DNA from: a virus
Reading direction: 5' to 3' (one strand)
IMG/VR virus record: IMGVR_UViG_3300034072_000318
Span: 1 to 45,692 of that record
Length of the DNA: 45,692 bases
In this document: in pieces, positions 12,675 through 24,080 of the stretch
Numbering within the stretch: the stretch's first letter is position 1
How the letters are laid out: every line of letters starts with the position of its first letter
Notes under the pieces: model-generated
What the model saw: only the letters and a program-made list of their open reading frames with translations
The model's database searches: none
Told to the model about the DNA's origin: nothing
Made by a program: the position numbers and the translations under genes

Positions 12675-12708
12675 AAATTTCTGGGATTTTGTCAAGGTTC
12701 TCGTAAAT
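12675..12708 (+). repeat. 34-bp intergenic core, copy 1
   Basis: AAATTTCTGGGATTTT begins and CTCGTAAAT ends the copy. It is followed immediately by the perfect hairpin AGCGTTT-TTG-AAACGCT. Lies in the gene-free convergent region. Confidence 0.8.
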
Positions 12709-12810
12709 AGCGTTTTTGAAACGCTCAATTCACGATAGATTTTGACAGATTTTGATCTTATTTTAGATTATTTGTATCTATTTGTATAACATTTTGTTAT
12801 ATTCTTCTAG

Positions 12811-12844
12811 AAATTTCTGGGATTTTTATATATTCCTCGTAAAA
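12811..12844 (+). repeat. 34-bp intergenic core, copy 2
   Basis: The first 16 bases are identical to copy 1 and the end is CTCGTAAAA. CCCGCACGC follows, resembling the left arm of the GC hairpin seen at other copies, but the right arm is missing. Confidence 0.8.
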
Positions 12845-12935
12845 GCGAAATCCCGCACGCTATTATTTAACACAAAAGGGGCAAATCGGACATCTATGTC
12901 CAATTCACCCCTATGAGTGTATTATATTAGATTAA

Positions 12936-13241
12936 TTAGATTACAGCTTGCACATTGATACTTGCTGCATTTGTATTATATTGAATCCAGGATGTATCTG
13001 GTCTATCTGGAATGGGTTCATTGTTGTTTCTATATGCCCCCGTCCTTGTTTTTCTATCCAGTTCCATTTCTTTCTTGTGATAGGTATAGATATATTTCAT
13101 TAGGGCTATTAGCCGTTCCTGCGTAGCAGGTGGATAAGTAGTTGTGATGATGTTTGCCATTAGAGCAGGATTGAAATATTGGTCGTTGATGATTTCTTCC
13201 AACAGTTCAATACATTTATCTACTTTGGTTCTTCTTCTCAT
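12936..13241 (-). CDS. hypothetical protein
   Basis: 101 residues. Helical N-terminal two-thirds (KCIELLEEIINDQYF..., QERLIALMKYIYTYHKKE) with a basic MRRRTK start, and a polar tail. Has its own TGTCAG-type promoter and an AAAGG ribosome site. Last gene of the leftward block. Not recognised. Confidence 0.65.
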   Translation of the reverse strand: MRRRTKVDKCIELLEEIINDQYFNPALMANIITTTYPPATQERLIALMKYIYTYHKKEMELDRKTRTGAYRNNNEPIPDRPDTSWIQYNTNAASINVQAVI

Positions 13242-13267
13242 AGTCCGCCTTTCTTGTAGAACCCGCC

Positions 13268-13289
13268 ATTATATCACGAAGGGCTGACT
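13268..13289 (-). promoter_or_regulatory. box promoter AGTCAG-N10-TATAAT
   Basis: Leftward promoter with AGTCAG at 13284-13289 and TATAAT at 13268-13273, 26 nt before ATG 13241. The box lies in one arm of the hairpin at 13279-13302. Confidence 0.7.
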
Positions 13290-13302
13290 TGCGCCAGCCC
13301 TT
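13279..13302 (-). terminator. hairpin after the 13318 gene, probable terminator
   Basis: Perfect 8-bp stem AAGGGCTG / CAGCCCTT with an 8-nt loop, 16 nt downstream of the stop of the leftward gene 13318-13464. There is no U-run; it overlaps the next promoter's box. Confidence 0.5.
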
Positions 13303-13317
13303 GGTAGATATCATTAT

Positions 13318-13464
13318 TTAGTTTTTTGCTTGCTTGGTCTCAGCAGAAAACTTTACGCCATTCTTTTCCGCCTCTGACAGAGCCTGCTTAGCAGCAGCTG
13401 AGAAACGGCCACGGCGGCCAACAGTAATTCCCTTGCTAACTAGATATTCACGCTTTGTTGTCAT
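13318..13464 (-). CDS. small DNA-binding-like protein (REYLVSKG family)
   Basis: 48 residues beginning MTTKREYLVSKGITVGRRG and containing RFSAAAKQALSEAE. This short pattern (REYLV.LGL ... GRGRFS..A..A) recurs in phage and actinobacterial proteins, resembling the Lsr2-tail/RGG type. It may bind AT-rich DNA. Its -10 box is at 13493-13498. Confidence 0.6.
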   Translation of the reverse strand: MTTKREYLVSKGITVGRRGRFSAAAKQALSEAEKNGVKFSAETKQAKN

Positions 13465-13492
13465 TGATATGATCCTTTCTCGATCAGTATTT

Positions 13493-13498
13493 ATTATA
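13493..13498 (-). promoter_or_regulatory. -10 box for the 13318-13464 gene
   Basis: TATAAT 28 nt before ATG 13464. The expected TGTCAG box is absent here; instead copy 3 of the 34-bp core begins 3 bp upstream. Confidence 0.5.
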
Positions 13499-13500
13499 TA

Positions 13501-13534
13501 TGATTTTCGGGAATTTGTAAATACCCCCGTAAAT
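13501..13534 (+). repeat. 34-bp intergenic core, copy 3
   Basis: TGATTTTCGGGAATTT ... CCCCGTAAAT. GGG falls at position 9-11 as in most copies. A 5-bp hairpin TGGGC/GCCCA (13542-13556) follows. Confidence 0.75.
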
Positions 13535-13564
13535 CAATCCTTGGGCCCACCGCCCATAGGAATC

Positions 13565-13810
13565 CTATTTGTCCGAATTGTCCGATACGACAATTTGTGA
13601 ATCCATTGAAGGCAATTCATCTTCAATTAGATCTAATGTATCTTCGAGCTCCTCCTGAATATGATATGGCTCAATTGTCCTGTCATTCTCAATTTGGAAC
13701 CAATCTATATTATCGCTGCTTGCTGCCTCCCATGCTGCTTCAGCAGAATCGGCAGTTACAACGGTATAGAATTCAATTAGTTTATCTCCATAGACTTTGT
13801 ATTTACTCAT
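13565..13810 (-). CDS. small hypothetical protein
   Basis: 81 residues from ATG 13810, preceded by GGAGGAAG. MSKYKVYG.KLIEFYTVVTADSAEAAWEAA is a beta-alpha pattern frequent in phage proteins, with an acidic C-terminal half. It overlaps the upstream gene by 8 nt and is the last of a seven-gene unit from the 15.77-kb promoter. Confidence 0.6.
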   Translation of the reverse strand: MSKYKVYGDKLIEFYTVVTADSAEAAWEAASSDNIDWFQIENDRTIEPYHIQEELEDTLDLIEDELPSMDSQIVVSDNSDK

Positions 13811-14150
13811 TGTCTTCCTCCTCAAATTCAATAATGATATCTCGTTCTAACATCCAGTCAAAGATAGCCTCATCTAATGATTCCAGCCCGTATTCTAGAC
13901 TGAATGCATTCTTATCAGAATCCTCCCAGAATAGGTCGAATACATCCTTCTCAGTTAACTTTGAATTAGTCACAAAGTCTTCGCCGCCTTCTGGAGAATA
14001 TATATCTAATCTATCTTTAACCATGTCCCATACCCATAGCCAAACCAGGGGTGGGAATGCATTTACTTCTTGGAGCCCGTCAATTAATTTATTTAATTGT
14101 ACATAAGCGTCATCTCTTCTTGTTTGTTCCTGTAGATCTAAATCAGCCAC
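13803..14150 (-). CDS. hypothetical acidic protein
   Basis: 115 residues from GTG 14150, chosen because AAAGGA lies 9 nt upstream; an in-frame ATG at 14168 lacks one. The product is acidic, ends EFEEEDNE and contains a Trp-rich stretch (PPLVWLWVWDMV). Overlaps genes at both ends. Confidence 0.55.
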   Translation of the reverse strand: MADLDLQEQTRRDDAYVQLNKLIDGLQEVNAFPPLVWLWVWDMVKDRLDIYSPEGGEDFVTNSKLTEKDVFDLFWEDSDKNAFSLEYGLESLDEAIFDWMLERDIIIEFEEEDNE

Positions 14151-14421
14151 GTGTTTTTGTCCTTTCATTAATGGCAAACGATAATTGATATGTTAATGCA
14201 TATACATGTGCAAGAGCGTCTGCTTGGCCCTCCCAATACTTCCGCTCCATGGACTGCAATGCGTCATCGTAGTCGTTCTCTATCTCTATAAGACTTGCCG
14301 CCTCTAGTTCTTGCTCAGCACCAAGCATGAGGCTTTTTAGTTCCCCGTGCAGAATGTCTGTGCCCGTCTCGCCAAGGTCGACAAGTCTCTGGAGCCGTTC
14401 TGGTAGTTCAGTTGAGTACAT
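14143..14421 (-). CDS. hypothetical helical protein
   Basis: 92 residues, mostly helical and acidic (ERLQRLVDLGE, SMERKYWEGQADALAHVYALTYQL). GAGG is present upstream of ATG 14421. Part of the seven-gene unit. Confidence 0.6.
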   Translation of the reverse strand: MYSTELPERLQRLVDLGETGTDILHGELKSLMLGAEQELEAASLIEIENDYDDALQSMERKYWEGQADALAHVYALTYQLSFAINERTKTRG

Positions 14422-14659
14422 TGCTTACCTCCATGTCAGGACGTAGTATATCAATCGCCACTGACAAAAGGTGGCGGGCAAGAAGAGCCTGTCCTGATAA
14501 ATGATTATATTCAAAATCTAAATCAGTATAAGCCTTAGAAGAAGGGTCAATCAACTCCATTTCAGAAGCAATTCCTTCTATATCCTGCTCTAAACTAATT
14601 AGATGCAGCTTTATATATTCTATGTATTTACCAGTTTGTGTTATGTATGCCGATTCCAT
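14408..14659 (-). CDS. hypothetical helical protein
   Basis: 83 residues, predicted to be two long helices with an acidic linker. Its ATG overlaps the TAA of the preceding gene (TAATG). Its C-terminal helix (QALLARHLLSVAIDIL) is similar in style to the gene before; both might be paralogous but identity is not obvious. Confidence 0.55.
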   Translation of the reverse strand: MESAYITQTGKYIEYIKLHLISLEQDIEGIASEMELIDPSSKAYTDLDFEYNHLSGQALLARHLLSVAIDILRPDMEVSNVLN

Positions 14660-14817
14660 TATATTCTTCCTTCCACTAATAGACCTTCTAAGAAACTTGC
14701 CGCATCAATTAATCCTTTACGCACAGCCTCATTTGATTCATTCGTCGGCAGATAGAATTGAGCATTATCAATAGAGTAAATCATATTCTCTACATCTAAT
14801 TGTGTATATCCTAACAT
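14659..14817 (-). CDS. small hypothetical protein
   Basis: 52 residues beginning MLGYTQLDVENMIYSIDNAQ, helical. GAGG before the start and one-base overlaps with both neighbours support translation. Confidence 0.55.
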   Translation of the reverse strand: MLGYTQLDVENMIYSIDNAQFYLPTNESNEAVRKGLIDAASFLEGLLVEGRI

Positions 14818-15038
14818 TAGTTCACCTCGAAATATAGTTCATGGTCAGGAGTTAATTTGTAATACTCATTAAACTCCTGCTTTAATTCAGGTGCTCCATA
14901 TACTAAGCAGACATTATAATCCGCATAGATAACACCTTCGTCTAAATGAGAACCAATCCAATCATCAAATAGTTGATGAGCAACGGTATCCACAATACCG
15001 TCTTGAATCATTTGGTCCATATCGTCAAACATTGACAT
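14817..15038 (-). CDS. hypothetical acidic protein
   Basis: 73 residues, acidic, ribosome site GGAAAGGAA before ATG 15038. Begins MSMFDDMDQMIQDG, a frequent start of small actinophage proteins. Function unknown; in the unit behind the Api92-like gene. Confidence 0.6.
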   Translation of the reverse strand: MSMFDDMDQMIQDGIVDTVAHQLFDDWIGSHLDEGVIYADYNVCLVYGAPELKQEFNEYYKLTPDHELYFEVN

Positions 15039-15040
15039 AT

Positions 15041-15745
15041 TTATTCCTTTCCGCTTTTGGCTAATTCTACACTATGGGTCTGACATTTCTCATCTGCCTC
15101 ACCATAGCCACATTTAGGGCATGTGTCGTATTCACATTCTTCACAGTATGGAGTTTCATCTAATTCCGCCTCACATTCACGGCATTTCCAACCATACTCT
15201 GAGATAGATATAACTTCTCCACGAAGCAGTTCTAGTTCTCCACCCCAACCTTGTTCTTCTTCATAACTTAATGTAAAGAGAAGAGTTGGGTATTGTGCAG
15301 ATAGTTTTTCAAGGGCGGGAACAGGTGGAGACCAAGCAGTATGTAAGTTGTAATATACAACAAGATTATCTCCATTTGGTGTAGGTCCTTCCATATAAGT
15401 ATCAGGATATTTATCATCAGGAGATACGGCTACATCCCATTTGGTTCCCCAATTTCTGACATTCCAGTTATACCAGTCATTTGTAGAAAAATCGAGGGGG
15501 TTATCAGAACGAGGCGGTTGTTGAATATAATCCTCATCAGATACACCATCCTCAGTATGATTCCATATATTATGAAATGCAAAGATAGGATTGGGATATG
15601 TCTCTAATTTCTTCTCCATTTGTTTAGTTTCAAAGTTCCAGTTATCATGAACCTTCTTGAATGGACGATTTAATTGTGCTACAATATCGGTTATTTCCGA
15701 AGGATTACCTTCGATAGTTAAACCGTTAAATACCCAATTTGGCAT
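15041..15745 (-). CDS. Api92-like (DUF1281) protein with C-terminal zinc ribbon
   Basis: 234 residues. The start MPNWVFNGLTIEG is characteristic of the Api92/DUF1281 ferredoxin-like family found on phages and mobile elements, followed by AFHNIWN and a W/N-rich middle. The last 45 residues add CRECEAELD..PYCEECEYDTCPKCGYGEADEKC (in parts), a multi-Cys zinc ribbon. Such proteins are often linked with host-takeover or anti-defence regions. First gene of its unit. Confidence 0.75.
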   Translation of the reverse strand: MPNWVFNGLTIEGNPSEITDIVAQLNRPFKKVHDNWNFETKQMEKKLETYPNPIFAFHNIWNHTEDGVSDEDYIQQPPRSDNPLDFSTNDWYNWNVRNWGTKWDVAVSPDDKYPDTYMEGPTPNGDNLVVYYNLHTAWSPPVPALEKLSAQYPTLLFTLSYEEEQGWGGELELLRGEVISISEYGWKCRECEAELDETPYCEECEYDTCPKCGYGEADEKCQTHSVELAKSGKE

Positions 15746-15769
15746 ATTATTCCTTTCGCTTAGGGTCCT

Positions 15770-15791
15770 ATTATATATCCGACCTCTGACA
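15770..15791 (-). promoter_or_regulatory. box promoter TGTCAG-N10-TATAAT
   Basis: Leftward promoter for the unit 15745 to 13565. TATAAT ends 24 nt before ATG 15745; GGTC and GACC lie either side of the -10 box. Confidence 0.8.
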
Positions 15792-15814
15792 TTTGTCTAT
15801 ATGAATCAAGTCAC

Positions 15815-15848
15815 AAATTTTCAGGAAAATTTGACAGATCTCGTAAAT
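15815..15848 (+). repeat. 34-bp intergenic core, copy 4
   Basis: AAATTTTCAGGAAAAT ... TCTCGTAAAT. TGCGGGC begins 28 bp after the C of CGTAA, as in copies 5-9. The stretch also contains TTGACA (15831-15836) with TATAGT 18 bp later, a possible rightward promoter. Confidence 0.75.
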
Positions 15849-15883
15849 ACATGATATAGTCCTCAGCTGTGCGGGCAAAACAA

Positions 15884-15913
15884 GATCCCCGTACCGAAAG
15901 GTGTACAGGGATC
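15884..15913 (-). terminator. terminator-like hairpin
   Basis: GATCCC(C)GTAC pairs with GTAC(A)GGGATC around a loop of 8. Read leftward it is followed by TTGTTTTG, a good intrinsic terminator for the unit ending at 16033. Confidence 0.6.
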
Positions 15914-16032
15914 AGAAAATTAGGGCTGCTAGCCAAACGAAAGGAATTAAGTAAACGCTGCGTTACTTAGCGACTTGGTGATTAACCTATTAGCCGCACC
16001 CTAATTAATTAAACGGACGAACCGTAGATATA
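15914..16032 (-). ncRNA. structured intergenic segment, possible 3'-UTR RNA
   Basis: An 8-bp closing stem AATTAGGG (15918-15925) / CCCTAATT (15999-16006) encloses an inner stem AAGTAA(A)CG / CGTTACTT (15949-15968) and a short GGCT/AGCC hairpin. It lies between the 16033 gene and the terminator. It does not fit a tRNA (no T-arm). It may be a small RNA or protective 3' leader; expression unknown. Confidence 0.35.
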
Positions 16033-16437
16033 TTATACCAGAATCGGGACGTCTGTATATTTCTCTACGAATGTCCGTAGGTCCATGGTGAAGAGGGGGT
16101 TATTCTTCATTCCTCGAACCTTGTTGTCTAAATTGTAGAAACTGTCTTCCTCGTGAAGACTGAATGTGGCTTGCTCCCAGTCGATAACAGGAATCTTATG
16201 CTCATTGTCTGATATCGAATTTACTTGGAGCCCCCATCCAGTTTCAAAAGACCAACCGTCTCCAATCATGTGACTGATAGCGATACGTGTTGCATATGAA
16301 GGGTCCGACCAACGTGGCTGTGCCTTTGCTACGGCCTCTGCCAAATTGGCTAACATGTTGTGCCCGCCCCAGTGTGAATACAATACGATTGTATCTCCAC
16401 CTGGTTGCACGAATACGAAATTTGCTCTGTCTCCCAC
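16033..16437 (-). CDS. conserved phage protein (GDRANFVF type)
   Basis: 134 residues from GTG 16437 with GAGG 9 nt upstream. The start GDRANFVFVQPGGDTIVLYSHWGG (in parts) is a conserved actinophage pattern of unknown function; the rest is beta-rich. Last gene of a five-gene unit. Confidence 0.65.
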   Translation of the reverse strand: MGDRANFVFVQPGGDTIVLYSHWGGHNMLANLAEAVAKAQPRWSDPSYATRIAISHMIGDGWSFETGWGLQVNSISDNEHKIPVIDWEQATFSLHEEDSFYNLDNKVRGMKNNPLFTMDLRTFVEKYTDVPILV

Positions 16438-16439
16438 CT

Positions 16440-16646
16440 TTATACCTCTTCCTTTTCTAGTTGTGGTGTTTCTTCTTTACGGTTTAATTCTACTATTTCA
16501 AAGGCCCAACTGTCAAGGGTCTTCGAGAACTTATTGCGGTGGTGGCCACAGAAAAATAATTCTCCGCTGGTACCACGTGTTAAATATAAAGCTTGGGCGG
16601 AACATGAATCACATTTGATCCATCTAGTTAAATCCTCAGAGGTCAT
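16440..16646 (-). CDS. DUF7455-like zinc-binding protein
   Basis: 68 residues with CDSCSAQA (13-16) and FFCGHHRNKF (about 32-36). This CxxC...CGHH pattern is typical of the small actinophage/actinobacterial DUF7455-type proteins, probably a zinc ribbon. Acidic C-terminus. Confidence 0.7.
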   Translation of the reverse strand: MTSEDLTRWIKCDSCSAQALYLTRGTSGELFFCGHHRNKFSKTLDSWAFEIVELNRKEETPQLEKEEV

Positions 16647-16791
16647 TATCTAATGTCCCAAATTCGATTTGGTCTGCTACCCAATCCAATGTATGTCCAT
16701 CTTCATGAGTTTCCGCCCATTTGCGGATGTTGTTAATAATTACTTCACGAGTAAATTTAACTCCATCCTCAAAACCATCTCTATAGTCCAT
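16636..16791 (-). CDS. small hypothetical protein
   Basis: 51 residues (MDYRDGFEDGVKFTRE start) with GGAGG 4 nt upstream. Overlaps the next gene by 11 nt. Helical and acidic; resembles other small phage proteins starting with YxDGFxxG. Confidence 0.6.
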   Translation of the reverse strand: MDYRDGFEDGVKFTREVIINNIRKWAETHEDGHTLDWVADQIEFGTLDNDL

Positions 16792-16792
16792 A

Positions 16793-17002
16793 TTACCTCC
16801 TGTAGCCTGTTGGCTCGTAGTCTGTCTCCACTAGTATATCCAATTTGTATTTGGAAATCAAGGCAGTAACTTTTTCGTTATTACCCGTCCCAATTTCAAA
16901 TACATTGGCTTTGAGCCAGTTTGGGTCCAGACCTGAAAATTCTGCTTCCCAATATGCCGCCTTAAGGGCGGCAGTATTAGGAGCCTGTAGTTGATAATAC
17001 AT
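16793..17002 (-). CDS. hypothetical protein
   Basis: 69 residues from ATG 17002 (TAATG overlap). Starts MYYQLQAPNTAALKAAYWEAE with an alpha/beta pattern and ends with TDYEPTGYRR. No family recognised. Confidence 0.6.
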   Translation of the reverse strand: MYYQLQAPNTAALKAAYWEAEFSGLDPNWLKANVFEIGTGNNEKVTALISKYKLDILVETDYEPTGYRR

Positions 17003-17466
17003 TAGGCAGTCGCCCAATCTGCATCTTCAACATCGAATGAATCAATCATGGTATCACCATTGAATGAATCAATTGTAAGTACATCTTGTAGGAAATACTT
17101 AGCATCGAAGTCTTCGAGTTCATTAAGCGGGCACTCATAGTCGACCTCAACCTGAACGGTGGCGGTGATACGAATGGTCTGCTTTGGTTCATGTCCAAGG
17201 ATATCACATAGTTCTGACAGAACTTCTTCCTTAGATGTACCTGAGTCATACCATGCATCTGCAGTTAGATTATTTAAAATTGCACCAATTTGTTTTTCCT
17301 GCGCCTGGAGGCGGGAAGACAATTGATTAACTCTATATTGATTCTCAGCAATGATTGTTTCCAATTCATTTACTTTTACTGTAGGATAAGTTGCCTCTCC
17401 ATTATTAATCGACTTGTAAGTTACAAGAAGATTAGGATTATAGGTCTCAGCCATATTTGTTTCCAT
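17002..17466 (-). CDS. hypothetical protein with coiled coil and beta region
   Basis: 154 residues from ATG 17466 just after AAAGGA. The middle (about 30-60) is a coiled coil; the C-terminal half has alternating beta strands (IRITATVQVEVDYECPLNELEDFD). First gene of the unit from promoter 17495-17516. Confidence 0.6.
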   Translation of the reverse strand: METNMAETYNPNLLVTYKSINNGEATYPTVKVNELETIIAENQYRVNQLSSRLQAQEKQIGAILNNLTADAWYDSGTSKEEVLSELCDILGHEPKQTIRITATVQVEVDYECPLNELEDFDAKYFLQDVLTIDSFNGDTMIDSFDVEDADWATA

Positions 17467-17484
17467 TTCATTCCTTTCTGTTTG

Positions 17485-17508
17485 CATGGGCCGTATTCTA
17501 CACCCATG
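17485..17508 (-). repeat. inverted repeat flanking a -10 box
   Basis: CATGGG ... CCCATG with TAGAAT between the arms. Similar arrangements occur at 19584-19607, 21514-21536 and 22250-22275. Confidence 0.6.
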
Positions 17509-17516
17509 GACTGACA
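17495..17516 (-). promoter_or_regulatory. box promoter TGTCAG-N10-TAGAAT
   Basis: For the unit 17466 to 16033; 28 nt from the -10 box to the start codon. Confidence 0.75.
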
Positions 17517-17524
17517 TTTGTCTA

Positions 17525-17558
17525 GTATTTTGGGGGAAAATTTAAATGTGTCGTAACA
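17525..17558 (+). repeat. 34-bp intergenic core, copy 5
   Basis: GTATTTTGGGGGAAAA ... TGTCGTAACA. TGCGGGCC begins 28 bp after the C of CGTAAC, and CCCGC/GCGGG can pair between 17568 and 17585. Confidence 0.75.
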
Positions 17559-17619
17559 TGCAAATCCCCCGCTCTCCCTTGCGGGCCATCACAGCTGCAT
17601 TAATATGATCAAAGAGGAG

Positions 17620-17637
17620 GGGCCCCTTTCGGGGCCC
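17620..17637 (-). terminator. terminator-like hairpin
   Basis: GGGCCCC / GGGGCCC with a GAAA tetraloop (leftward reading) followed by CTCCTCTTT. It lies 8 nt after the stop of the DUF932 gene. Confidence 0.7.
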
Positions 17638-17644
17638 GCATTCT

Positions 17645-18655
17645 TTAGAACGATTTCACAACCTGAAGAATCTTATTCTTCTCAGCAGTAATAATCGGGT
17701 CAAAACCTGAAGCAGAAGCCCACTTAGATTCTGAATTATTCTTCCGAGTTGGTCGGAAATAATCAAGGCGCTCAGTTAGCGCATTGAAAGCGCCCCACTT
17801 AGTTCCCTTGATGTTGGCATTGGTAGGAGAATTGAAATAAAGGTCATTGAGTAGAACAACCTTGTTATCCCATTTAGTCTTAGCCAATTTAGAAGCAGAT
17901 TCTTCGGGCTTAGGGTAAATTGTCTTTACTAAGTCGTTGAATTGCTTATCGGTAATTTCCTGAGCAAAGAGAGTCTGAGCCTCTTGTTCAAAGACATCAA
18001 AGTATCCGAGAGTTAGACCGAGAGTTTCACGAGCAATCTGAATCTTACCTTCGGCGGTCTGAGTATGGCGAATCTTGAAAGATTGTTTAGCAGAACGCAT
18101 TGCGAGATTCAAAGTATTTTGGCAAACTACACGCACAGGTGTAATTGCCGCCTGAACAGCAACAGAGCCGTCATGAGATGTCCAAACAATAAGATACAAT
18201 TTAGTCTTATCGTTAGCACCCTGAGGGTCTAATACCATTTCACGAGGGACAGTAAGAGAACCGAATACCACTTTACCACCCTTGAGAGAACCAGCAGATT
18301 CCCAAGCACAGCGAGAATCGCCGTCTAGAATGTTATCAGCGAATGAGAATAATTCTTCATTCTGAACCACTTTATAGCGTGAGCCGACAGTAGAGAGCAC
18401 ATCAGTACCGCCATTGAATGGATTGGTACGGATAACCAATTGTGAATCTGATGTATCATTCCAATCAGCAGGAACGAAATCAGTTAGCGGAGATAGGCGG
18501 ACATCCCAATTGGAAAGTCTAGCCTCATCTAGCATTAATTGAGTTGATACTTCCTCATCTTGTGAGAAGATACGATTGGCAAGATTATGCCAAGCAGGGG
18601 TGCCACGTAGGGCAAAGGCAACTTCGTTGCCATTCATTTCTAGGTTGTGAGCCAT
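17645..18655 (-). CDS. DUF932 protein
   Basis: 336 residues from ATG 18655 with AAAGGAA. Motifs VGSRYKVVQN.E.FSFADNIL and ITPVRVVCQNTLNLA match DUF932 (phage/plasmid-like protein TIGR03299), an enigmatic family on phages and plasmids. The family has no proven function. Single-gene unit with its own promoter, terminator and 34-bp core. Confidence 0.8.
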   Translation of the reverse strand: MAHNLEMNGNEVAFALRGTPAWHNLANRIFSQDEEVSTQLMLDEARLSNWDVRLSPLTDFVPADWNDTSDSQLVIRTNPFNGGTDVLSTVGSRYKVVQNEELFSFADNILDGDSRCAWESAGSLKGGKVVFGSLTVPREMVLDPQGANDKTKLYLIVWTSHDGSVAVQAAITPVRVVCQNTLNLAMRSAKQSFKIRHTQTAEGKIQIARETLGLTLGYFDVFEQEAQTLFAQEITDKQFNDLVKTIYPKPEESASKLAKTKWDNKVVLLNDLYFNSPTNANIKGTKWGAFNALTERLDYFRPTRKNNSESKWASASGFDPIITAEKNKILQVVKSF

Positions 18656-18689
18656 GAATTTATTCCTTTCTAGTTTAGATTGAGTCCAA

Positions 18690-18711
18690 AGTATAACATA
18701 GGGGTCCGACA
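18690..18711 (-). promoter_or_regulatory. box promoter TGTCGG-N10-TATACT
   Basis: For the DUF932 gene; 34 nt from the -10 box to ATG 18655. Confidence 0.75.
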
Positions 18712-18757
18712 TTGTCTAGATTAGTTCTATGTTAGCTAAAAATGTGATCAAGATCCC

Positions 18758-18791
18758 AGAATCTAGGGCGTTTTTAACTTGACTCGTAACG
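18758..18791 (+). repeat. 34-bp intergenic core, copy 6
   Basis: AGAATCTAGGGCGTTT ... GACTCGTAACG. The GC hairpin GCCC-A-CGC / GTGCGGGC follows with TGCGGGCC 28 bp after CGTAAC. Confidence 0.75.
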
Positions 18792-18847
18792 AGCTAATCG
18801 CCCACGCTCCTGTGCGGGCCACGCAGGCCACACAAAAGATCACGCAG

Positions 18848-19564
18848 CTATTTTTTACTCGCAGAGAATCGAATATCTGATTTATTAAATACGCAGAGCC
18901 CGCATGAAACACACGCAGAACCATTGGCAGATATTAACGGAATAGATTTATTATTCTCAGGACATTTAGCACCAGGCTTACCCGTTAATTCTTTCATTAC
19001 GCTTTCGGTGACTGCAAAAGTCTTTCCTAGATACGCAAGGCGTGTACCATGCTCATTGCGTAATTCGGCAGCAATCTGCTTATTCTCATCATCGGTAGAA
19101 TAATAAAGAGATAAATTAGAGATACCTTTTAGAATAACGGCAGCAGAAGAGACACGAGTATACACCCAAAATTGTACGTCTGCATGCTTTTCGATTACCG
19201 TCTTCCATGCATATGCATAAGTATCATTAAAGAAATCGCCATCCCAGTGGATACGGAATAACTTATCTGCAGAACGCTTATCGCATTCCGCCTTGAATTC
19301 CACAATCATGCTATCAATTAGAGATACCATGGTGTCATGGTCTGCATTACGCAGCAATTCCCAATTGTGCAAGAGTACGGCTTTTACGCCCTTGTAGACT
19401 TTTTCGAGTTTTCCTGCATAGCATACGCTTTCACAAATACTTGTGGCACCAGGGCACGAGAAAGCCTTACCAGCAGGCAATCCAAAAGTGTTGGCAATTG
19501 TTGGGGTTTTTCCATTGGGCGAGACTGCATTAGCGACTTTCCTATCTTTAGAGCGTTTTAACAT
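18848..19564 (-). CDS. gp88-like Cys-rich protein
   Basis: 238 residues. SCPGATSICESVCYAGK (three Cys) near residues 37-53 and CVSCGLC near the C-terminus resemble the mycobacteriophage gp88 family. The Cys pattern suggests a metal or Fe-S cluster, which is inference. The N-terminus is basic (MLKRSKDRKV). It has its own promoter and GAAAGGA site. Confidence 0.65.
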   Translation of the reverse strand: MLKRSKDRKVANAVSPNGKTPTIANTFGLPAGKAFSCPGATSICESVCYAGKLEKVYKGVKAVLLHNWELLRNADHDTMVSLIDSMIVEFKAECDKRSADKLFRIHWDGDFFNDTYAYAWKTVIEKHADVQFWVYTRVSSAAVILKGISNLSLYYSTDDENKQIAAELRNEHGTRLAYLGKTFAVTESVMKELTGKPGAKCPENNKSIPLISANGSACVSCGLCVFNKSDIRFSASKK

Positions 19565-19583
19565 TAGTTAATTCCTTTCGTTA

Positions 19584-19607
19584 TGGGGTAGATTATAGCC
19601 TACCCCA
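19584..19607 (-). repeat. inverted repeat flanking a -10 box
   Basis: TGGGGTAG and CTACCCCA form an 8-bp perfect stem with TATAAT in the loop. Confidence 0.65.
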
Positions 19608-19613
19608 CCGACA
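19592..19613 (-). promoter_or_regulatory. box promoter TGTCGG-N10-TATAAT
   Basis: For the gp88-like gene, 27 nt to ATG 19564. The box abuts the stop codon of the upstream gene. Confidence 0.8.
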
Positions 19614-20111
19614 TCACCAAGAGGACTGATAGTAGAACGATAAACGCTCAAAATCAGGTCTATCTATAATTGGTTGTAGTTGGGTTATGGTATTCATTAG
19701 ACCCTGCCAATACCACTCATCGACATCGGTGCTACCGAAGAAGAAGCCCTCAGCAGGCGGTATTAATTCGGGGTCTTTATTGGTAATCGCTAAAGTACAT
19801 ACACGAACCAATTCCCGTATCTTTTCATGAGATACATAGTACTCACCGCAGTCATCTTCACCACGTTGTACATTTTCTACGAACCAGCCATGAACGGCAT
19901 TAACCTTGCGCCAATAGGCTACATTTACGGATACATCTACACCGTAGATACTATCCTCATCGACAAGAGTAGCAACACCAGCGGCTTCTACTACATTATT
20001 CCATTCAGGAAAAGTAGCGGCAGCATAACTTATGCCATTACTTCTATCTAATTTATTCCAGTCGATTTTCTCGACATGCTTACGAGCTGATAAATACATA
20101 TCTAGTCCCAT
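19614..20111 (-). CDS. conserved phage protein (MGLDMYL type)
   Basis: 165 residues. MGLDMYLSARKHVEK at the N-terminus, VAYWRKVNAVHGWFV, CGEYYVS and EGFFFGSTDVDEWYW are conserved in a phage family of unknown function. Rich in Trp and Tyr. Single-gene unit. Confidence 0.7.
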   Translation of the reverse strand: MGLDMYLSARKHVEKIDWNKLDRSNGISYAAATFPEWNNVVEAAGVATLVDEDSIYGVDVSVNVAYWRKVNAVHGWFVENVQRGEDDCGEYYVSHEKIRELVRVCTLAITNKDPELIPPAEGFFFGSTDVDEWYWQGLMNTITQLQPIIDRPDFERLSFYYQSSW

Positions 20112-20137
20112 TTGTTTTCCTTTCGTTTGAGACCGCC

Positions 20138-20159
20138 ATTATATACTAGGAGACTGACA
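20138..20159 (-). promoter_or_regulatory. box promoter TGTCAG-N10-TATAAT
   Basis: For the 19614-20111 gene; 26 nt to the start codon. Confidence 0.8.
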
Positions 20160-20166
20160 TTTACAA

Positions 20167-20200
20167 TTAATTCAGGGGATTTTTATAATTTGACGTAACG
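20167..20200 (+). repeat. 34-bp intergenic core, copy 7
   Basis: TTAATTCAGGGGATTTTT ... TTGACGTAACG; TGCGGGCC begins 28 bp after CGTAAC. Confidence 0.75.
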
Positions 20201-20240
20201 GGGCTGCGCCCCCCACGCTTTTGCGGGCCATTTTTGGAAT

Positions 20241-20281
20241 GGGGCGGGAATAGCTATGATTACACATTCAAAACCCGCCCC
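20241..20281 (-). terminator. large-loop inverted repeat after the 20289 gene
   Basis: GGGGCGGG / CCCGCCCC, 8 bp with a 25-nt loop, located 7 nt past the stop of the leftward 20289-20549 gene. Possible terminator. Confidence 0.5.
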
Positions 20282-20288
20282 AAATTTA

Positions 20289-20549
20289 TTATGTAGGCCA
20301 ACCTATTTCGTATTTAGTTAGAGGATTCTTATTGTATTTATTTACAATCTCCATTGGTAAATAAATCGCTAAGGTTTTCTTCTTTTGTTTTTTATCATAA
20401 ACAAAAGCCCTAACATTACCAGCGAATTGTCTTATGTTTCCAAAAACTAATTCGCCAAGATACTCACGACTAATTCCTTCATCTGAGTAAATAGTTAAAT
20501 CGTTTGCCTTGTTTTCGTCATAGATCTCAACACGATAACGATTACGCAT
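20289..20549 (-). CDS. hypothetical protein
   Basis: 86 residues from ATG 20549 with AGAAGG upstream. Lysine-rich middle with beta strands (RVRAFVYDKKQKKKTLAIYLP). Coupled to the gene before (8-nt overlap). Confidence 0.6.
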   Translation of the reverse strand: MRNRYRVEIYDENKANDLTIYSDEGISREYLGELVFGNIRQFAGNVRAFVYDKKQKKKTLAIYLPMEIVNKYNKNPLTKYEIGWPT

Positions 20550-20778
20550 ACGCACCTTCTTCTAATTTAGAATAAGCCTTTAGACTTGTGACATTTATAG
20601 TTAGTTGCTCATCACCATAAAGAGAGAGGAGATGATTTAGAGCGTCGCCAGCAGTTTTATAATCACCATAATTGGTATGCTGTCCGATACCTGTTCTGAC
20701 TTCCATTTCCCAGCAATCTTCGCCGCCAGGAGATACGGAGTATTCTACTTCGTAGATTTCCGCCATACGCATTTCCAT
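20542..20778 (-). CDS. hypothetical protein
   Basis: 78 residues, MEMRMAEIYEVEYSVSPGGED start, acidic, with a CWEME patch. Starts 29 nt after its -10 box; the box itself is degenerate. Confidence 0.6.
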   Translation of the reverse strand: MEMRMAEIYEVEYSVSPGGEDCWEMEVRTGIGQHTNYGDYKTAGDALNHLLSLYGDEQLTINVTSLKAYSKLEEGAYA

Positions 20779-20807
20779 TTATTTACTTTCTGTTAGTAGG
20801 AGAGAGA

Positions 20808-20829
20808 ATTATAGCATGGGGGCTAGATT
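20808..20829 (-). promoter_or_regulatory. degenerate box promoter AATCTA-N10-TATAAT
   Basis: TATAAT is perfect, 29 nt before ATG 20778, but the upstream box AATCTA matches TGTCAG poorly. It lies in the arm of the hairpin 20818-20843. Confidence 0.4.
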
Positions 20830-20843
20830 TTTGTCTAGCCCCC
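20818..20843 (-). terminator. hairpin after the 20850 gene
   Basis: GGGGGCTAG and CTAGCCCCC, 9-bp stem with an 8-nt loop, directly after the stop of the 20850-21269 gene. No U-run. It overlaps the next promoter. Confidence 0.5.
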
Positions 20844-20849
20844 AATCTG

Positions 20850-21269
20850 TTATAGATAACGAGCGATAGCGTTGTAAGTTGAGGTGCTTACTACTTCCTC
20901 GTCTGTCATTTTGAGAATACGGATAGCGTTCTCAATTTCCTCTACCATTTCACGATACTGCCAATCGTGGTAAGTATCAAAGTCCTTTTCAGGTTCTTTT
21001 GGTAGGTCAATAGCACCTTTAGGTAGGTTGAAAGATACCGCTATGTCGCCATTGTATCTTGTGTGAGCAGATAAGTCCTGTGCTTTAGAGATAGCAGTTA
21101 GAGCAAGTTTCGCAACTTCCTTGTTATACTTCTCTTGTAGTTTCTCAAACTTTTCCTCGTTTGATTTCTGACTAGCCTTATCCTTTTGGATTTGGGCTAA
21201 CTTATTTTCTAGTGCCTTGATTACTTTGGTTGTAGCAATCTTGACATTTATCGCTTTGCCTCTTGACAT
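20850..21269 (-). CDS. hypothetical coiled-coil protein
   Basis: 139 residues from ATG 21269 with GAAAGGAAAAT. The first 60 residues are a Lys/Glu coiled coil (KALENKLAQIQKDKASQKSNEEKFEKL in parts) with a mixed C-terminus. No recognised family. Single-gene unit with its own promoter. Confidence 0.65.
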   Translation of the reverse strand: MSRGKAINVKIATTKVIKALENKLAQIQKDKASQKSNEEKFEKLQEKYNKEVAKLALTAISKAQDLSAHTRYNGDIAVSFNLPKGAIDLPKEPEKDFDTYHDWQYREMVEEIENAIRILKMTDEEVVSTSTYNAIARYL

Positions 21270-21298
21270 TATTTTCCTTTCGTTAGTTATGAGCGAGA

Positions 21299-21320
21299 AT
21301 TGTAGCATGGGCTACTGACA
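21299..21320 (-). promoter_or_regulatory. box promoter TGTCAG-N10-TACAAT
   Basis: For the 20850-21269 gene. The box sits in the middle of the 22-bp palindrome 21309-21330. Confidence 0.75.
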
Positions 21321-21330
21321 TCAGTAGCCC
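21309..21330 (-). repeat. 22-bp palindrome around the box
   Basis: GGGCTACTGA - CA - TCAGTAGCCC, two perfect 10-bp arms. It could be a terminator of the 21342-21488 gene or an operator for an activator. Confidence 0.65.
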
Positions 21331-21341
21331 AATACATTTAT

Positions 21342-21488
21342 TTATTTAGCAGGTGCGCTAGTCCAGCGCTCTTTGCCATTGACATCAAGGAGAATACGAT
21401 TCACGCCGCTTGGGTGATTATCAACCGCCTTGATTATTCCTGTGATACCACTTTGAGTGGTTGTGAAGGTCTGTCCGACTTCCAGCAT
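21342..21488 (-). CDS. small phage protein (beta, MLEVGQTFT type)
   Basis: 48 residues: MLEVGQTFTTTQSGITGIIKAV...VNGKERWTSAPAK (shown in parts). Such a GQTF...SGITG...WT pattern is common in small phage beta proteins of unknown function. GAAAGGAAATAAA ribosome site. Confidence 0.65.
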   Translation of the reverse strand: MLEVGQTFTTTQSGITGIIKAVDNHPSGVNRILLDVNGKERWTSAPAK

Positions 21489-21520
21489 TTTATTTCCTTT
21501 CGTTAGTAGTTGTAGGGGAC

Positions 21521-21542
21521 ATTATACATGCCCCCTCTGACA
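21521..21542 (-). promoter_or_regulatory. box promoter TGTCAG-N10-TATAAT
   Basis: For the 21342-21488 gene; 32 nt to the start. AGGGG-CAT / ATG-CCCCT arms flank the -10 box (21514-21536). Confidence 0.8.
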
Positions 21543-21543
21543 T

Positions 21544-21681
21544 TTATAGACCGAAGTCTTGGCAAGTGAGCATTACTGCGTCATCAAGAGCCATGATCAA
21601 ATCAGCTATGGTATCTTCATCTAATTCTGATACCATGTCATTAGTCAGGCTTGATGACCATAGTGTTTTTACTTTAGCCAT
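21544..21681 (-). CDS. small hypothetical protein
   Basis: 45 residues (MAKVKTLWSSSLTNDMVSEL) with GAGGAGG upstream. Its TAA overlaps the box of the next promoter (21521-21542). Last gene of the unit that starts at 22227. Confidence 0.55.
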   Translation of the reverse strand: MAKVKTLWSSSLTNDMVSELDEDTIADLIMALDDAVMLTCQDFGL

Positions 21682-21962
21682 TATTCCTCCTCAGGATAGT
21701 AAGGGTCACACCATGAGTGTAAGTGGTGTTGTTCAACGATAGCCCATGCGGGTGCTGTATCTAATCCTTTGTAAGATACACCTTCAGGCATCTGTATTTC
21801 TCTATCTGACTCATCATCCCAATAAGCCTCGATAGCCTCGATACATGGTAGCACCATACTTTGAGGGACGGGCGGATAATGATTAGCGGATAAGTGGATA
21901 CCAATAGCAGTAGATAAATCTAAATCGCTATTGGCTAAATCGGTAGCAAAATTACTCCCCAT
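21681..21962 (-). CDS. hypothetical protein
   Basis: 93 residues from ATG 21962 with GAGGT 8 nt upstream; an in-frame ATG 22001 lacks a site. Contains Pro-rich HYPPVPQSMV and a C-terminal HHLHSWCDPYY, perhaps a metal-binding His/Cys patch. Overlaps the upstream gene by 11 nt. Confidence 0.55.
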   Translation of the reverse strand: MGSNFATDLANSDLDLSTAIGIHLSANHYPPVPQSMVLPCIEAIEAYWDDESDREIQMPEGVSYKGLDTAPAWAIVEQHHLHSWCDPYYPEEE

Positions 21963-22227
21963 CTGATAATACCTCGTTTCGTAGAGTTTCCAATTCGTCA
22001 ATAGTAGCCATCAGGTCTGCGAATTGGTCTTTAGTTAGAATTGCCTTTGTTGCGCCATCTACGGCGTTTGAGGCTACCATTGTCGCATACATGAATAACG
22101 CTTTTGCTAATTCATCTTGAGATAAATTATTGTGTTCATGGCAGATAAATTGGGCAAGACCCATTGACTCATCTTCCATAATTGCTTTTTCAGTTGCCTG
22201 AATTAGAGCGGTTGCGGTGCTTATCAT
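21952..22227 (-). CDS. hypothetical helical protein
   Basis: 91 residues, MISTATALIQATEKAI start, acidic and all-helical. First gene of the three-gene unit from promoter 22259-22280. Confidence 0.6.
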   Translation of the reverse strand: MISTATALIQATEKAIMEDESMGLAQFICHEHNNLSQDELAKALFMYATMVASNAVDGATKAILTKDQFADLMATIDELETLRNEVLSDGE

Positions 22228-22249
22228 TTATTTTCCTTTCGTTTTTGTT

Positions 22250-22275
22250 GAGGGCTAGATTATAGCCTAGCCCTC
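22250..22275 (-). repeat. inverted repeat flanking a -10 box
   Basis: GAGGGCTAG and CTAGCCCTC, perfect 9-bp arms with TATAAT in the loop. Confidence 0.65.
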
Positions 22276-22280
22276 TGACA
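22259..22280 (-). promoter_or_regulatory. box promoter TGTCAG-N10-TATAAT
   Basis: For the unit 22227 to 21544; 31 nt to the start codon. The -10 box sits in the loop of the 22250-22275 inverted repeat. Confidence 0.8.
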
Positions 22281-22283
22281 TTT

Positions 22284-22538
22284 TTAGGCGAGGGCTAAAA
22301 TAGCCTGAGTTGCGCCTAAGTTGATAATGTCTAACTCGTCTTGTAATTCTTTACGAGTCATCTGATTAATGTCACCAATTACGCTATGAACCATGTCAGC
22401 ATGGAATAATTCCAATACATCTTTCGGCATGGAAACAATTTGCGGATAGAAAGAACCCATTGGGTCAATTAGGGATACGAATTCAACACCATCAACGGAT
22501 ACTGAAAATCTAGCCCAGTTAGTTGTATCTAAAGACAT
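22284..22538 (-). CDS. hypothetical protein
   Basis: 84 residues, MSLDTTNWARFSVSVDGVEF start; FYPQIVSMPKDVLELFHADMV is a beta-helix pattern. Ribosome site GAAAGGAAAAAATAA. Single-gene unit. Confidence 0.6.
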   Translation of the reverse strand: MSLDTTNWARFSVSVDGVEFVSLIDPMGSFYPQIVSMPKDVLELFHADMVHSVIGDINQMTRKELQDELDIINLGATQAILALA

Positions 22539-22572
22539 TTATTTTTTCCTTTCGTTTGTCGTTAGGTCAGGA

Positions 22573-22594
22573 ATTATACACTAAATTACTGACA
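22573..22594 (-). promoter_or_regulatory. box promoter TGTCAG-N10-TATAAT
   Basis: For the 22284-22538 gene; 34 nt to the start. Confidence 0.8.
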
Positions 22595-22598
22595 TTAT

Positions 22599-22622
22599 CA
22601 CGCCGAGCTTCGGCGTGTTTTT
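22599..22622 (+). terminator. hairpin with T-run on the + strand
   Basis: CACGCCGA / TCGGCGTG with a 3-nt loop followed by TTTTT on the + strand. Oriented against the surrounding leftward genes, so it may be bidirectional or block antisense transcription. Confidence 0.5.
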
Positions 22623-22636
22623 GTGAAGAATCTCAC

Positions 22637-22670
22637 AAAATTCAGGGCATTTTTAATTTGACTCGTAACT
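22637..22670 (+). repeat. 34-bp intergenic core, copy 8
   Basis: AAAATTCAGGGCATTTTT ... GACTCGTAACT; TGCGGGCC begins 28 bp after CGTAAC. Confidence 0.75.
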
Positions 22671-22704
22671 GCGTTTTGCGCCACTCTCCTTTGCGGGCCG
22701 AGAT

Positions 22705-22836
22705 CTATTCTGTCAAATCAAAACGCTTTTTGTGTTTAGATTTTCTTTTATAAATTTTCTTTGATGGAATTGGTTGCGCCGCATTACTACGGCGCAGCTC
22801 CAAAACTTTTTTAATTCGAGGTAAATTTTGGAACAT
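22705..22836 (-). CDS. small basic protein
   Basis: 43 residues, Lys/Arg-rich (SKKIYKRKSKHKKRF), starting inside the end of the preceding gene (26-nt overlap). Likely nucleic-acid-binding by charge. No strong ribosome site, so less certain. Confidence 0.5.
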   Translation of the reverse strand: MFQNLPRIKKVLELRRSNAAQPIPSKKIYKRKSKHKKRFDLTE

Positions 22837-23002
22837 GATAATTGCTCGCTTTGTGAAATCTTACAACATCAAATCGCTCATTGTCTTTTGCGAACATCTC
22901 CGCAAAATCATTTACCATTTTAGAAAAAACAGCAGGGTGAGTTTTATCTGAAACATAGGCGAGAATTCTCGCCGTTTCAACATAGTCTTTTCGTGTCATC
23001 AT
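22811..23002 (-). CDS. hypothetical helical protein
   Basis: 63 residues beginning MMTRKDYVETARILAYVSDK; similar short helical phage proteins with RKDYVETA or YVKTA exist. One of five genes in a coupled unit that starts at 23362. Confidence 0.65.
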   Translation of the reverse strand: MMTRKDYVETARILAYVSDKTHPAVFSKMVNDFAEMFAKDNERFDVVRFHKASNYHVPKFTSN

Positions 23003-23003
23003 T

Positions 23004-23153
23004 TTAGTTCGTTTCCTTATCTACTGAGTGGAATACTTCAAACTTCTTTAGGTCGCTTTCAGGAAGCGCAAGAAAAACTTTTTGTAAATCAAACACCGCT
23101 TTGATGTCGGTGTCTGATTCGCTTTCAAAAGTTAGCAAAAGAATTTTAGTCAT
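23004..23153 (-). CDS. small hypothetical protein
   Basis: 49 residues: MTKILLLTFESESDTDIKA start, alpha/beta character. Its ATG overlaps the TAA of the next gene upstream. Function unknown. Confidence 0.55.
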   Translation of the reverse strand: MTKILLLTFESESDTDIKAVFDLQKVFLALPESDLKKFEVFHSVDKETN

Positions 23154-23362
23154 TAGAGAGCCTCTCTACTAGTAAAGAGTTCGGGTTCGGAAAGCAATCC
23201 GTTATCCCAAATAACTTCTCCATCATCAAGGATTAGAGAATAAGGATTACAAATACAATCCTCAAAATCAAAATCCTCGCCATTAGTCCAATACTGGACA
23301 CCGACACCATTACACAAATCGCAATTAGCGATTAGTTTTAGAGCATAATCTAATTTACTCAT
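23153..23362 (-). CDS. small Cys-containing protein
   Basis: 69 residues with CDLCNG (14-17) and CIC (about 36-38), a four-Cys pattern consistent with a zinc ribbon. The C-terminus is acidic with Trp. First gene of the unit from promoter 23394-23415. Confidence 0.6.
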   Translation of the reverse strand: MSKLDYALKLIANCDLCNGVGVQYWTNGEDFDFEDCICNPYSLILDDGEVIWDNGLLSEPELFTSREAL

Positions 23363-23491
23363 TTAGTTTTCCTTTCGTTCGTTGTTGTTGATAATTGTAG
23401 CGGAAGCCACCGACAAAATTGCGGTGAGGTTTTGCTGGCGTGTCGCCTCACGCTCAGCCTTGACATAGTTGCGAAAATCGATCAAATCCAT
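23363..23491 (-). CDS. small hypothetical protein carrying the next promoter
   Basis: 42 residues (MDLIDFRNYVKAEREATRQQ), GAGGAG upstream. The TGTCGG box, -10 element and ribosome site of the next gene are all embedded in its 3' coding half. Confidence 0.55.
   Translation of the reverse strand: MDLIDFRNYVKAEREATRQQNLTAILSVASATIINNNERKEN
23394..23415 (-). promoter_or_regulatory. box promoter TGTCGG-N10-TACAAT
   Basis: For the unit 23362 to 22705; lies within the coding end of the preceding gene. 31 nt to the start. Confidence 0.7.
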
Positions 23492-23494
23492 TTT

Positions 23495-23689
23495 TTACTC
23501 CTCTACTTTCACGGCTACAGTAGCCCATTTATGACCATTGAAACGGATAGCATACGCATTATAGCCGTCAAGCCAGATGTCGTCACGCTTTTCGGCAAAA
23601 TTAATCTCGCCGTATTGGTATTTTCTCGACATTGAGCGAGGGTAGTAAATCTGACCCACTAGCAGGTCTTCAATTGAATAAGTTTTCAT
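23495..23689 (-). CDS. hypothetical beta protein
   Basis: 64 residues (MKTYSIEDLLVGQIYYPRS start) with beta strands, similar to small phage SH3-like or ssDNA-binding-like folds by pattern only. GAAAGGAAAACT ribosome site. Confidence 0.6.
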   Translation of the reverse strand: MKTYSIEDLLVGQIYYPRSMSRKYQYGEINFAEKRDDIWLDGYNAYAIRFNGHKWATVAVKVEE

Positions 23690-23717
23690 CTAAGTTTTCC
23701 TTTCGTTTATTGGTTAG

Positions 23718-23739
23718 ATTATAACAGAGGGGGCTGACA
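23718..23739 (-). promoter_or_regulatory. box promoter TGTCAG-N10-TATAAT
   Basis: For the 23495-23689 gene; 28 nt to the start. Confidence 0.8.
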
Positions 23740-23740
23740 T

Positions 23741-23872
23741 CTAGAATTCTAAAATCCCGTAGTGTTTTTCAAATTCCTCAATAGTCATAATTCCTTTATA
23801 CTCATCACAAAATCCGCAAATTCGGACATCATCAGAGAAGGTAGTTTCGCAGAAGCAACAAATTTTTTTCAT
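23741..23872 (-). CDS. zinc-ribbon microprotein
   Basis: 43 residues with CCFC (5-8) and CGFC (19-22), a rubredoxin-like zinc ribbon, plus an amphipathic helix (EEFEKHYGI). GAAAGGA ribosome site and own promoter. Confidence 0.65.
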   Translation of the reverse strand: MKKICCFCETTFSDDVRICGFCDEYKGIMTIEEFEKHYGILEF

Positions 23873-23900
23873 TTAGTTTTCCTTTCTTTATTGTGCCGTT

Positions 23901-23922
23901 ATACTATCATGAGCCACCGACA
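23901..23922 (-). promoter_or_regulatory. box promoter TGTCGG-N10-TAGTAT
   Basis: For the 23741-23872 gene; 28 nt to the start. Confidence 0.7.
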
Positions 23923-23986
23923 TTTTTCAAATTAGCTGAGGCATTTTCTAAAATAATAAGACGGCGTGTTGTGTGGGAAATCTCAC

Positions 23987-24020
23987 AAATTTCGGGAAAT
24001 CGGACATAATGTACGTAACA
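23987..24020 (+). repeat. 34-bp intergenic core, copy 9
   Basis: AAATTTCGGGAAATCGG ... GTACGTAACA, one base shorter in its left half. The GC hairpin after it is perfect: GCCCGCAC / GTGCGGGC, with TGCGGGCC 28 bp after CGTAAC. Confidence 0.75.
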
Positions 24021-24080
24021 GACAAATCGCCCGCACAACTGTGCGGGCCTAGCGCCTTTTGTCAAGGCGACACGCCGATA

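Follow-up and report, generated by a model that had tools for sequence, protein, structure and literature searches.

A one-way intergenic repeat at the ends of early operons in uncultured freshwater phages

Cluster K mycobacteriophages carry the start-associated sequence (SAS) and the extended start-associated sequence (ESAS), which are repeated intergenic elements of actinophages and are tied to start codons. In mycobacteriophage L5 and other cluster A phages, the stoperators are numerous asymmetric intergenic sites whose orientation is tied to transcription, and they are proposed to stop elongation (PMC9283540). The SP-beta repeated element (SPBRE), which is bound by MrpR, is a case of dispersed intergenic repeats in one phage that serve one regulator (PMC10516654). 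Here we describe a repeated intergenic element, which we call E, from IMG/VR virus record IMGVR_UViG_3300034072_000318. The stretch we analyzed, positions 1 to 45,692 of that record (45,692 nucleotides), is referred to as the window. We see about an even chance that E is a polar, protein-bound transcription stop or insulator at the 3' boundary of early operons. This reading rests on the rigidity of E at the DNA level, its one-way orientation, its placement at operon ends, the terminators that adjoin it, and its doubling at convergent junctions. We infer the binding by a protein, the stopping of polymerase, and the identity of the binding protein.

Copies of E in the window and in relatives

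A preliminary description of the window reported nine copies of a core in a single orientation. All nine are there, on the plus strand and with rigid spacing. A sequence-only model, whose training set was divergent relatives together with the window copies themselves, recovered all of them with E-values of 2e-12 to 6e-7: copies 1 (12675..12738, E-value = 5.9e-7), 2 (12811..12874, 1.2e-9), 3 (13501..13564, 5.3e-8), 4 (15815..15878, 2.6e-9), 5 (17525..17588, 3.4e-9), 6 (18758..18821, 5.3e-10), 7 (20167..20230, 4.6e-12), 8 (22637..22700, 1.9e-12), and 9 (23987..24050, 5.1e-8). We kept the plus orientation of the preliminary description. However, the flanking genes in this block are all on the minus strand, so every copy is antisense to its neighbors, and E is best read as its reverse complement, which we call the transcript sense. 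A tenth, weak match at 10955-10997 (plus strand, E-value = 1.4e-4) lies inside a short plus-strand open reading frame (ORF) and is probably fortuitous. A similar sequence is also present in one relative (L235), where it is perhaps conserved via the encoded protein.

To look beyond the window, we used two sets of relatives. The element-chosen set is made up of the IMG/VR pattern matches that were listed, and it was used to build a position-specific scoring matrix (PSSM). The protein-chosen set is made up of loci selected solely for having a gene related to the DUF932 gene of the window, and some of its contigs overlap the element-chosen set. The contigs are redundant assemblies, with about 68 effective motif clusters. 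On the element-chosen loci, the PSSM found at least 486 copies of E, versus 2 in a reversed-sequence control. All 78 newly fetched protein-chosen loci contain E, with 588 copies in all; every one of these (588/588) is oriented opposite to DUF932, with 0 on the DUF932 strand and 0 in the reversed-sequence controls. When we considered whole records, E was present in 16 of 16, mostly as 7-11 copies in a single block on a single strand (with occasional weak outliers). In near-complete genomes of 105-120 kb, E is concentrated in one early-gene block of about 12 kb. The preliminary description would have been undermined if related phages lacked E or if the spacing drifted, but E is found in the relatives and its spacing stays rigid. 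E is a large family among uncultured freshwater phages, with some 8 to 12 copies per phage.

Searching cultured phages and plasmids with the consensus gave no match to E, and scans of segments from LadyBird and Genie2 found no copies (one score of 13.9 in Genie2 was taken as background). The sole match to the strict pattern in a bacterial genome (L222) had a score of 7 and was dismissed as fortuitous. The literature that we searched, with incomplete coverage, held no description of E, and as far as these collections and papers show, E seems to be previously unnamed. As for the host, a Pfam scan of 82 ORFs from the window found WhiB, thioredoxin, pyrimidine-dimer glycosylase, and Mtd_N domains, and the WhiB domain points to an actinobacterium.

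Anatomy of E

The consensus of E is AAATTTC.GGG-N16-CGTAA-N13-CCC.CA, which is essentially gapless over about 50 nt and has a total information of about 33 bits. Aligning 56 divergent copies gives AAATTTC.GGG(A)TTTT, then TCGTAA, then gCCC.CA, and then, in many copies, TTTGCGGGC. In the window, copy 1 has the AAATTTC.GGG-CGTAA core and a degenerate right arm. The GGG sits where it had been described, with a displacement of one base in copy 9, and copy 4 reads AGG. Similarly, the motif TGCGGGC was said to lie at a fixed distance from CGTAA, and CGTAA-N23-TGCGGGC does have six exact matches, which are copies 4-9 and share a single strand, while the backwards control pattern has 0. TGCGGGC is an optional outer block: it is absent from copies 1-3 and from most of the terminal copies of relatives. 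The GC hairpin that was supposed to accompany the core is not conserved, as TGCGGGC can pair with CCCGC in some copies and not in others. Copy 9 (at 23987) is one of those in which it can; there, the CCCGCAC/GTGCGGG arms of E itself form a terminator-like hairpin on the minus strand (24029-24048).

Is E a DNA motif or a structured RNA? At orthologous sites, CGTAA has 0.05 substitutions per site, compared to 0.22-0.30 for the flanks and 0.26-0.30 for the arms between the blocks. RNAalifold found 0 consensus pairs in the 56 divergent copies, covariation between fixed columns within E was at chance, and there was no match in Rfam. Because there are no consensus RNA pairs and no covariation, and because CGTAA is conserved over its flanks, we take E to be a DNA motif, as judged from sequence comparisons. 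The two arms of E are complementary beyond the level for swapped arms (z ~6), with strong stems in 20 of 118 cases versus 6.6 expected. However, the loop around CGTAA varies in length, and there is no preference for G-U pairs on either strand, so we read this complementarity as dyad symmetry of the DNA and not as RNA pairing. Folding the copies one by one also gave no conserved fold; the energies were slightly lower for the transcript strand, without any shared structure. We also considered pairing between GGG and CCC as a conserved stem, and ruled it out, since its register slides and a compensatory signal is lacking. Finally, E does not contain a conserved GC hairpin and U-tract, as an intrinsic terminator would; such terminators adjoin E instead.

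The preliminary description suggested either a binding site or an RNA structure. A binding site fits the fixed spacing in the DNA and the one-way orientation, while the RNA structure is unsupported. More broadly, E might act as RNA, with 3' ends arising when the boundary transcript adopts a fold or when it is bound and processed. This would account for the excess complementarity of the half-arms around CGTAA, and also for the hairpin or tRNA end that lies ahead of E at a nearly fixed distance (see below). But given the lack of consensus pairs, of covariation, of an Rfam match, and of a G-U preference on either strand, and given that a gapless rigidity over about 50 nt is better suited to DNA, we consider this quite unlikely.

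Operon ends, terminators, and promoters

Genes were called with a simple hexamer ORF caller. On this basis, almost all copies of E are 3' of an early gene. Of the 469 copies in the element-chosen set, 400 are in the arrangement "< E> <", 19 are in the convergent arrangement "> E> <", and 0 are in divergent gaps. If we consider gaps of at least 150 bp in this set, E is present in 360 of 630 early codirectional gaps, 9 of 49 convergent gaps, 0 of 117 divergent gaps, and 0 of 64 late codirectional gaps (P = 1e-5 for convergent versus divergent). In the protein-chosen set, E is in 43 of 67 convergent gaps, 3 of 56 divergent gaps, and 0 of 132 late codirectional gaps. The three divergent cases are probably errors in the gene calls. 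E also tends to be doubled where transcription converges: 42 of the 43 E-bearing convergent gaps in the protein-chosen set have 2-3 copies, versus 5 of 417 codirectional gaps. The window follows this pattern. Copies 1 (outer) and 2 (inner) are in tandem between convergent genes that end at 12406 and 12936, and each of the remaining seven copies comes after a minus-strand gene and before the next promoter on that strand.

The individual sites are conserved as well. Among relatives, E is found 5' of DUF932 in 67 of 68 cases and 3' of DUF932 in 61 of 63 cases, and the interior of E is more similar at the same site across phages than between sites (0.50 vs. 0.33). In the window, the DUF932-family early gene (17645..18712, minus strand; PF06067, E-value = 4e-56) is flanked by copy 5, on its 3' side, and copy 6. 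Copy 6 separates it from a GP88-family early gene (18848..19564, minus strand; PF17338), whose relatives in cultured phages are mainly from Mycobacterium phages, which also hold the closest ones, with up to 57% identity to cluster A mycobacteriophage proteins.

These patterns bear on two explanations that do not involve a stop. First, E could be a packaging or recombination site, as the preliminary description suggested, or a place where cassettes are shuffled. Copies of E are dispersed direct repeats with dyad-like arms, and the halves of E are found in new combinations. On the other hand, about ten positionally conserved copies are found only at the ends of early operons; the site-specific interiors are conserved along with the positions; and the shared pieces mostly stop at the edges of blocks inside E, so that the flanks are not carried along. 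Nor did we find a tyrosine or serine recombinase (PF00589 or PF00239) in 11 near-complete relatives. For an attachment site, we would expect an encoded recombinase and exchange at the core along with the flanks, and neither was found. We think this explanation is extremely unlikely. Recombination at CGTAA in particular was rejected: sharing of half-elements is common, yet the halves are shared without their flanks.

Second, E might be a late promoter on the plus strand, of the extracytoplasmic function (ECF) type, with AAATTTC.GGG as the -35 box and CGTAA as the -10 box, and the antisense RNA would silence the early genes. The GGG-N16-CGTAA geometry is akin to that of group IV sigma promoters, and every copy is oriented as the late genes are. 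But E does not precede late genes, as it is missing from divergent and late codirectional gaps, there are no co-oriented genes downstream, and no cognate sigma factor was found. In addition, many copies have a GC-rich block directly after CGTAA, which is unfavorable for melting, and conservation extends about 20 nt beyond CGTAA. All of the matches to Sigma70_r4 (PF04545) were below threshold, and those that we inspected were a helix-turn-helix (HTH) protein of 46-48 amino acids. We consider the chance of an ECF promoter to be remote. Of the 11 near-complete genomes, 10 have such sub-threshold matches. The HTH protein is conserved in relatives (L303:369-509, L304:403-543, L307:346-492), downstream of what looks by eye like a RuvC-like gene. 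It is a candidate DNA-binding protein and is not tied to E.

If E marks the ends of early operons, then early transcripts might end nearby. In the transcript sense, hairpins end at -48..-31 relative to the central G in 49 of 111 non-redundant copies, as compared to 9 of 111 on the opposite side. Terminators with a stem and a T-run also cluster there, on the early strand, with 16 in one 15-nt bin. In several relatives (L127, L207, L044, and others), the place of the terminator is taken by the apparent 3' end of a tRNA, and E starts immediately after it. Judging from these terminators and apparent tRNA ends, it seems that early transcripts end or pause just before E. Examples in the window, all on the minus strand, include a 16-pair stem followed by TTTTGTG at 12877..12912, directly 5' of copy 2 in the direction of transcription; a stem followed by TTGTTTT at 15884..15913, with a U-tract that runs into copy 4; and a GC-rich hairpin at 17620..17637, which is 3' of the DUF932 gene and about 32 bp before copy 5.

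According to the preliminary description, seven of the copies lie just upstream of promoters. The adjacency holds, but these promoter-like sites face the minus-strand direction and drive the early genes of that strand. In the transcript sense, the promoters are just downstream of copy 4 (15770..15799, TAGACA-N18-TATAAT) and downstream of copies 5 (17495..17524, TAGACA-N18-TAGAAT), 6 (18690..18718, TAGACA-N17-TATACT), 7 (20138..20166, TTGTAA-N17-TATAAT), and 8 (22573..22601, GTGATA-N17-TATAAT). Another promoter is associated with copy 9 (about 23901-23930), and copy 3 overlaps the promoter of a small Lsr2-like gene (13493-13521). The product of this gene (48 amino acids; ORF at 13318-13464, minus strand) resembles the C-terminal DNA-binding domain of Lsr2, by eye only. 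The copies at 12675 and 12811, which are between convergent genes, have no promoter-like site.

E could instead be an operator or activator site, bound by a regulator from the phage or the host, that controls initiation at the promoter of the next operon. Besides the seven copies in the window, E lies at most 120 nt from 146 of the 286 early-strand promoter motifs of its region, and the site-specific interior of E would also make sense for an operator. However, many copies are in convergent gaps, mostly in tandem, with no early gene downstream; divergent gaps lack E (0/117); and the distance from E to the promoter is variable. Overall, control of initiation seems unlikely. Among the functions that the preliminary description put forward, a terminator-like role fits, because E is at operon ends, is in tandem at convergent junctions, and is adjoined by intrinsic terminators.

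Words inside E, its possible mechanism, and known systems

The density of perfect DnaA boxes is 128-233 times higher inside E than outside, and about a third of the distinct copies in the element-chosen set have them. (These enrichment ratios are inflated because members of a subfamily share descent.) At sites -1 and -2, the majority of copies have boxes; at -3 and -4, about a third do, and at +1 to +7, none do. The nine copies in the window have no DnaA boxes. In the left arm of E at the first site 5' of DUF932, the box occurs in either orientation, which is hard to explain by the constraint of a hairpin alone. The DnaA boxes in E are likely functional. In E. coli, DnaA is described as a roadblock to elongating RNA polymerase (at asnC), and pairs of DnaA boxes are reported to prefer a gap of 2-3 bp (PMC11317965).

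The boxes might indicate that E is linked to replication, as a DnaA-dependent origin, a polar fork barrier, or a priming site, and the single orientation of E in each genome would fit. But no site downstream of DUF932 has a DnaA box, and this includes the terminal copies; also, the placement of E tracks operon ends and convergent gaps. We rate a role in replication as very unlikely.

Other words are also specific to a site. Just downstream of DUF932, 43 of 65 copies have a CRP-like dyad, GTGA-N6-(T/A)CAC, around CGTA. Outside of E, CRP/GlxR-like dyads (TGTGAN6TCACA) are strongly enriched, with about 500 sites in the element-chosen relatives, with a peak 40-50 bp left of the center of E, in the stretch that separates E from the next early promoter. 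In the window they are found at 22622-22637, 24949-24964, and 25180-25195. This enrichment suggests that early operons are controlled by a CRP-family protein of the host. In relatives, copies of the 9-mer CGACACGCC are found at constant offsets, in the right arm of E and in both flanks, and TGTCCGA is repeated some 60 bp left of E; both are candidate binding words.

If E is a one-way stop or insulator, then a sequence-specific protein would bind double-stranded GGG...CGTAA...CCC, where the half-blocks AAATTTC.GGG and CCC.CA flank the central CGTAA. The bound protein would stop or insulate RNA polymerase that arrives from the upstream early operon, often just beyond an ordinary terminator hairpin, and before it reaches the promoter of the next operon or the head-on late genes. 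The site-specific words in the arms (DnaA boxes, and CRP-like or AT-rich dyads) might tune the block or supply it, and host DnaA could be the roadblock at some sites. The tandem copies at convergent gaps are compatible with the opposite polarity as well, in which late, head-on transcription would be kept out of the early block. We favor the early direction because the terminator hairpins are positioned on the early strand.

Several points weigh against a stop or insulator. Many copies are already behind a plausible intrinsic terminator, and E may be redundant there or otherwise employed. Most copies are also upstream of a promoter, so those copies might have a role in initiation. No protein that binds E was identified. 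And the evidence from placement depends on simple gene calls and redundant contigs.

A broader possibility, which we consider doubtful, is that E represents a new class of sequence-specific, orientation- and protein-dependent terminator or insulator in a large group of freshwater actinophages, with a GGG-CGTAA-CCC scaffold and interchangeable words for host regulators, including DnaA. If so, the ends of operons would respond to the state of the host. E is a robust marker for this group of freshwater phages and predicts where early transcripts end in uncultured members. It also offers a natural test of whether bound proteins act as one-way stops for RNA polymerase outside of the mycobacteriophages, possibly by borrowing host DnaA.

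How does E compare to known systems? Like SAS and ESAS, E is a repeated intergenic element of actinophages, but SAS is at start codons while E is at the 3' ends of genes. SPBRE is also a dispersed intergenic repeat of a phage, but it is a 15-bp motif in the promoter regions of a prophage, while E, at 3' boundaries, is much longer and has a rigid layout. The resemblance to the DnaA roadblock at asnC is that many copies of E contain perfect DnaA boxes; however, only a subset of E sites have boxes, and these start 21-23 bp apart, instead of having a gap of 2-3 bp. Intrinsic terminators are at operon ends, as E is, and a hairpin with a U-tract often adjoins E, but E has no conserved hairpin or U-tract of its own, and it has sequence conservation that intrinsic terminators lack.

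E shares with the L5-type stoperators an asymmetric intergenic placement and an orientation that is tied to transcription. A stoperator is a 13-bp site for a monomeric immunity repressor, while E is about 50 bp, has three blocks, and has a sequence that differs from the 13-bp consensus recognized by a cluster A repressor. E is also at operon ends, and in tandem in convergent gaps. Phages with stoperators are temperate and have an integrase, but PF00589 and PF00239 were not found in the 11 near-complete relatives that carry E (the repressor was not searched for). Overall, the stoperators seem to be the closest system in behavior, and E might work like a stoperator although we do not class it as one.

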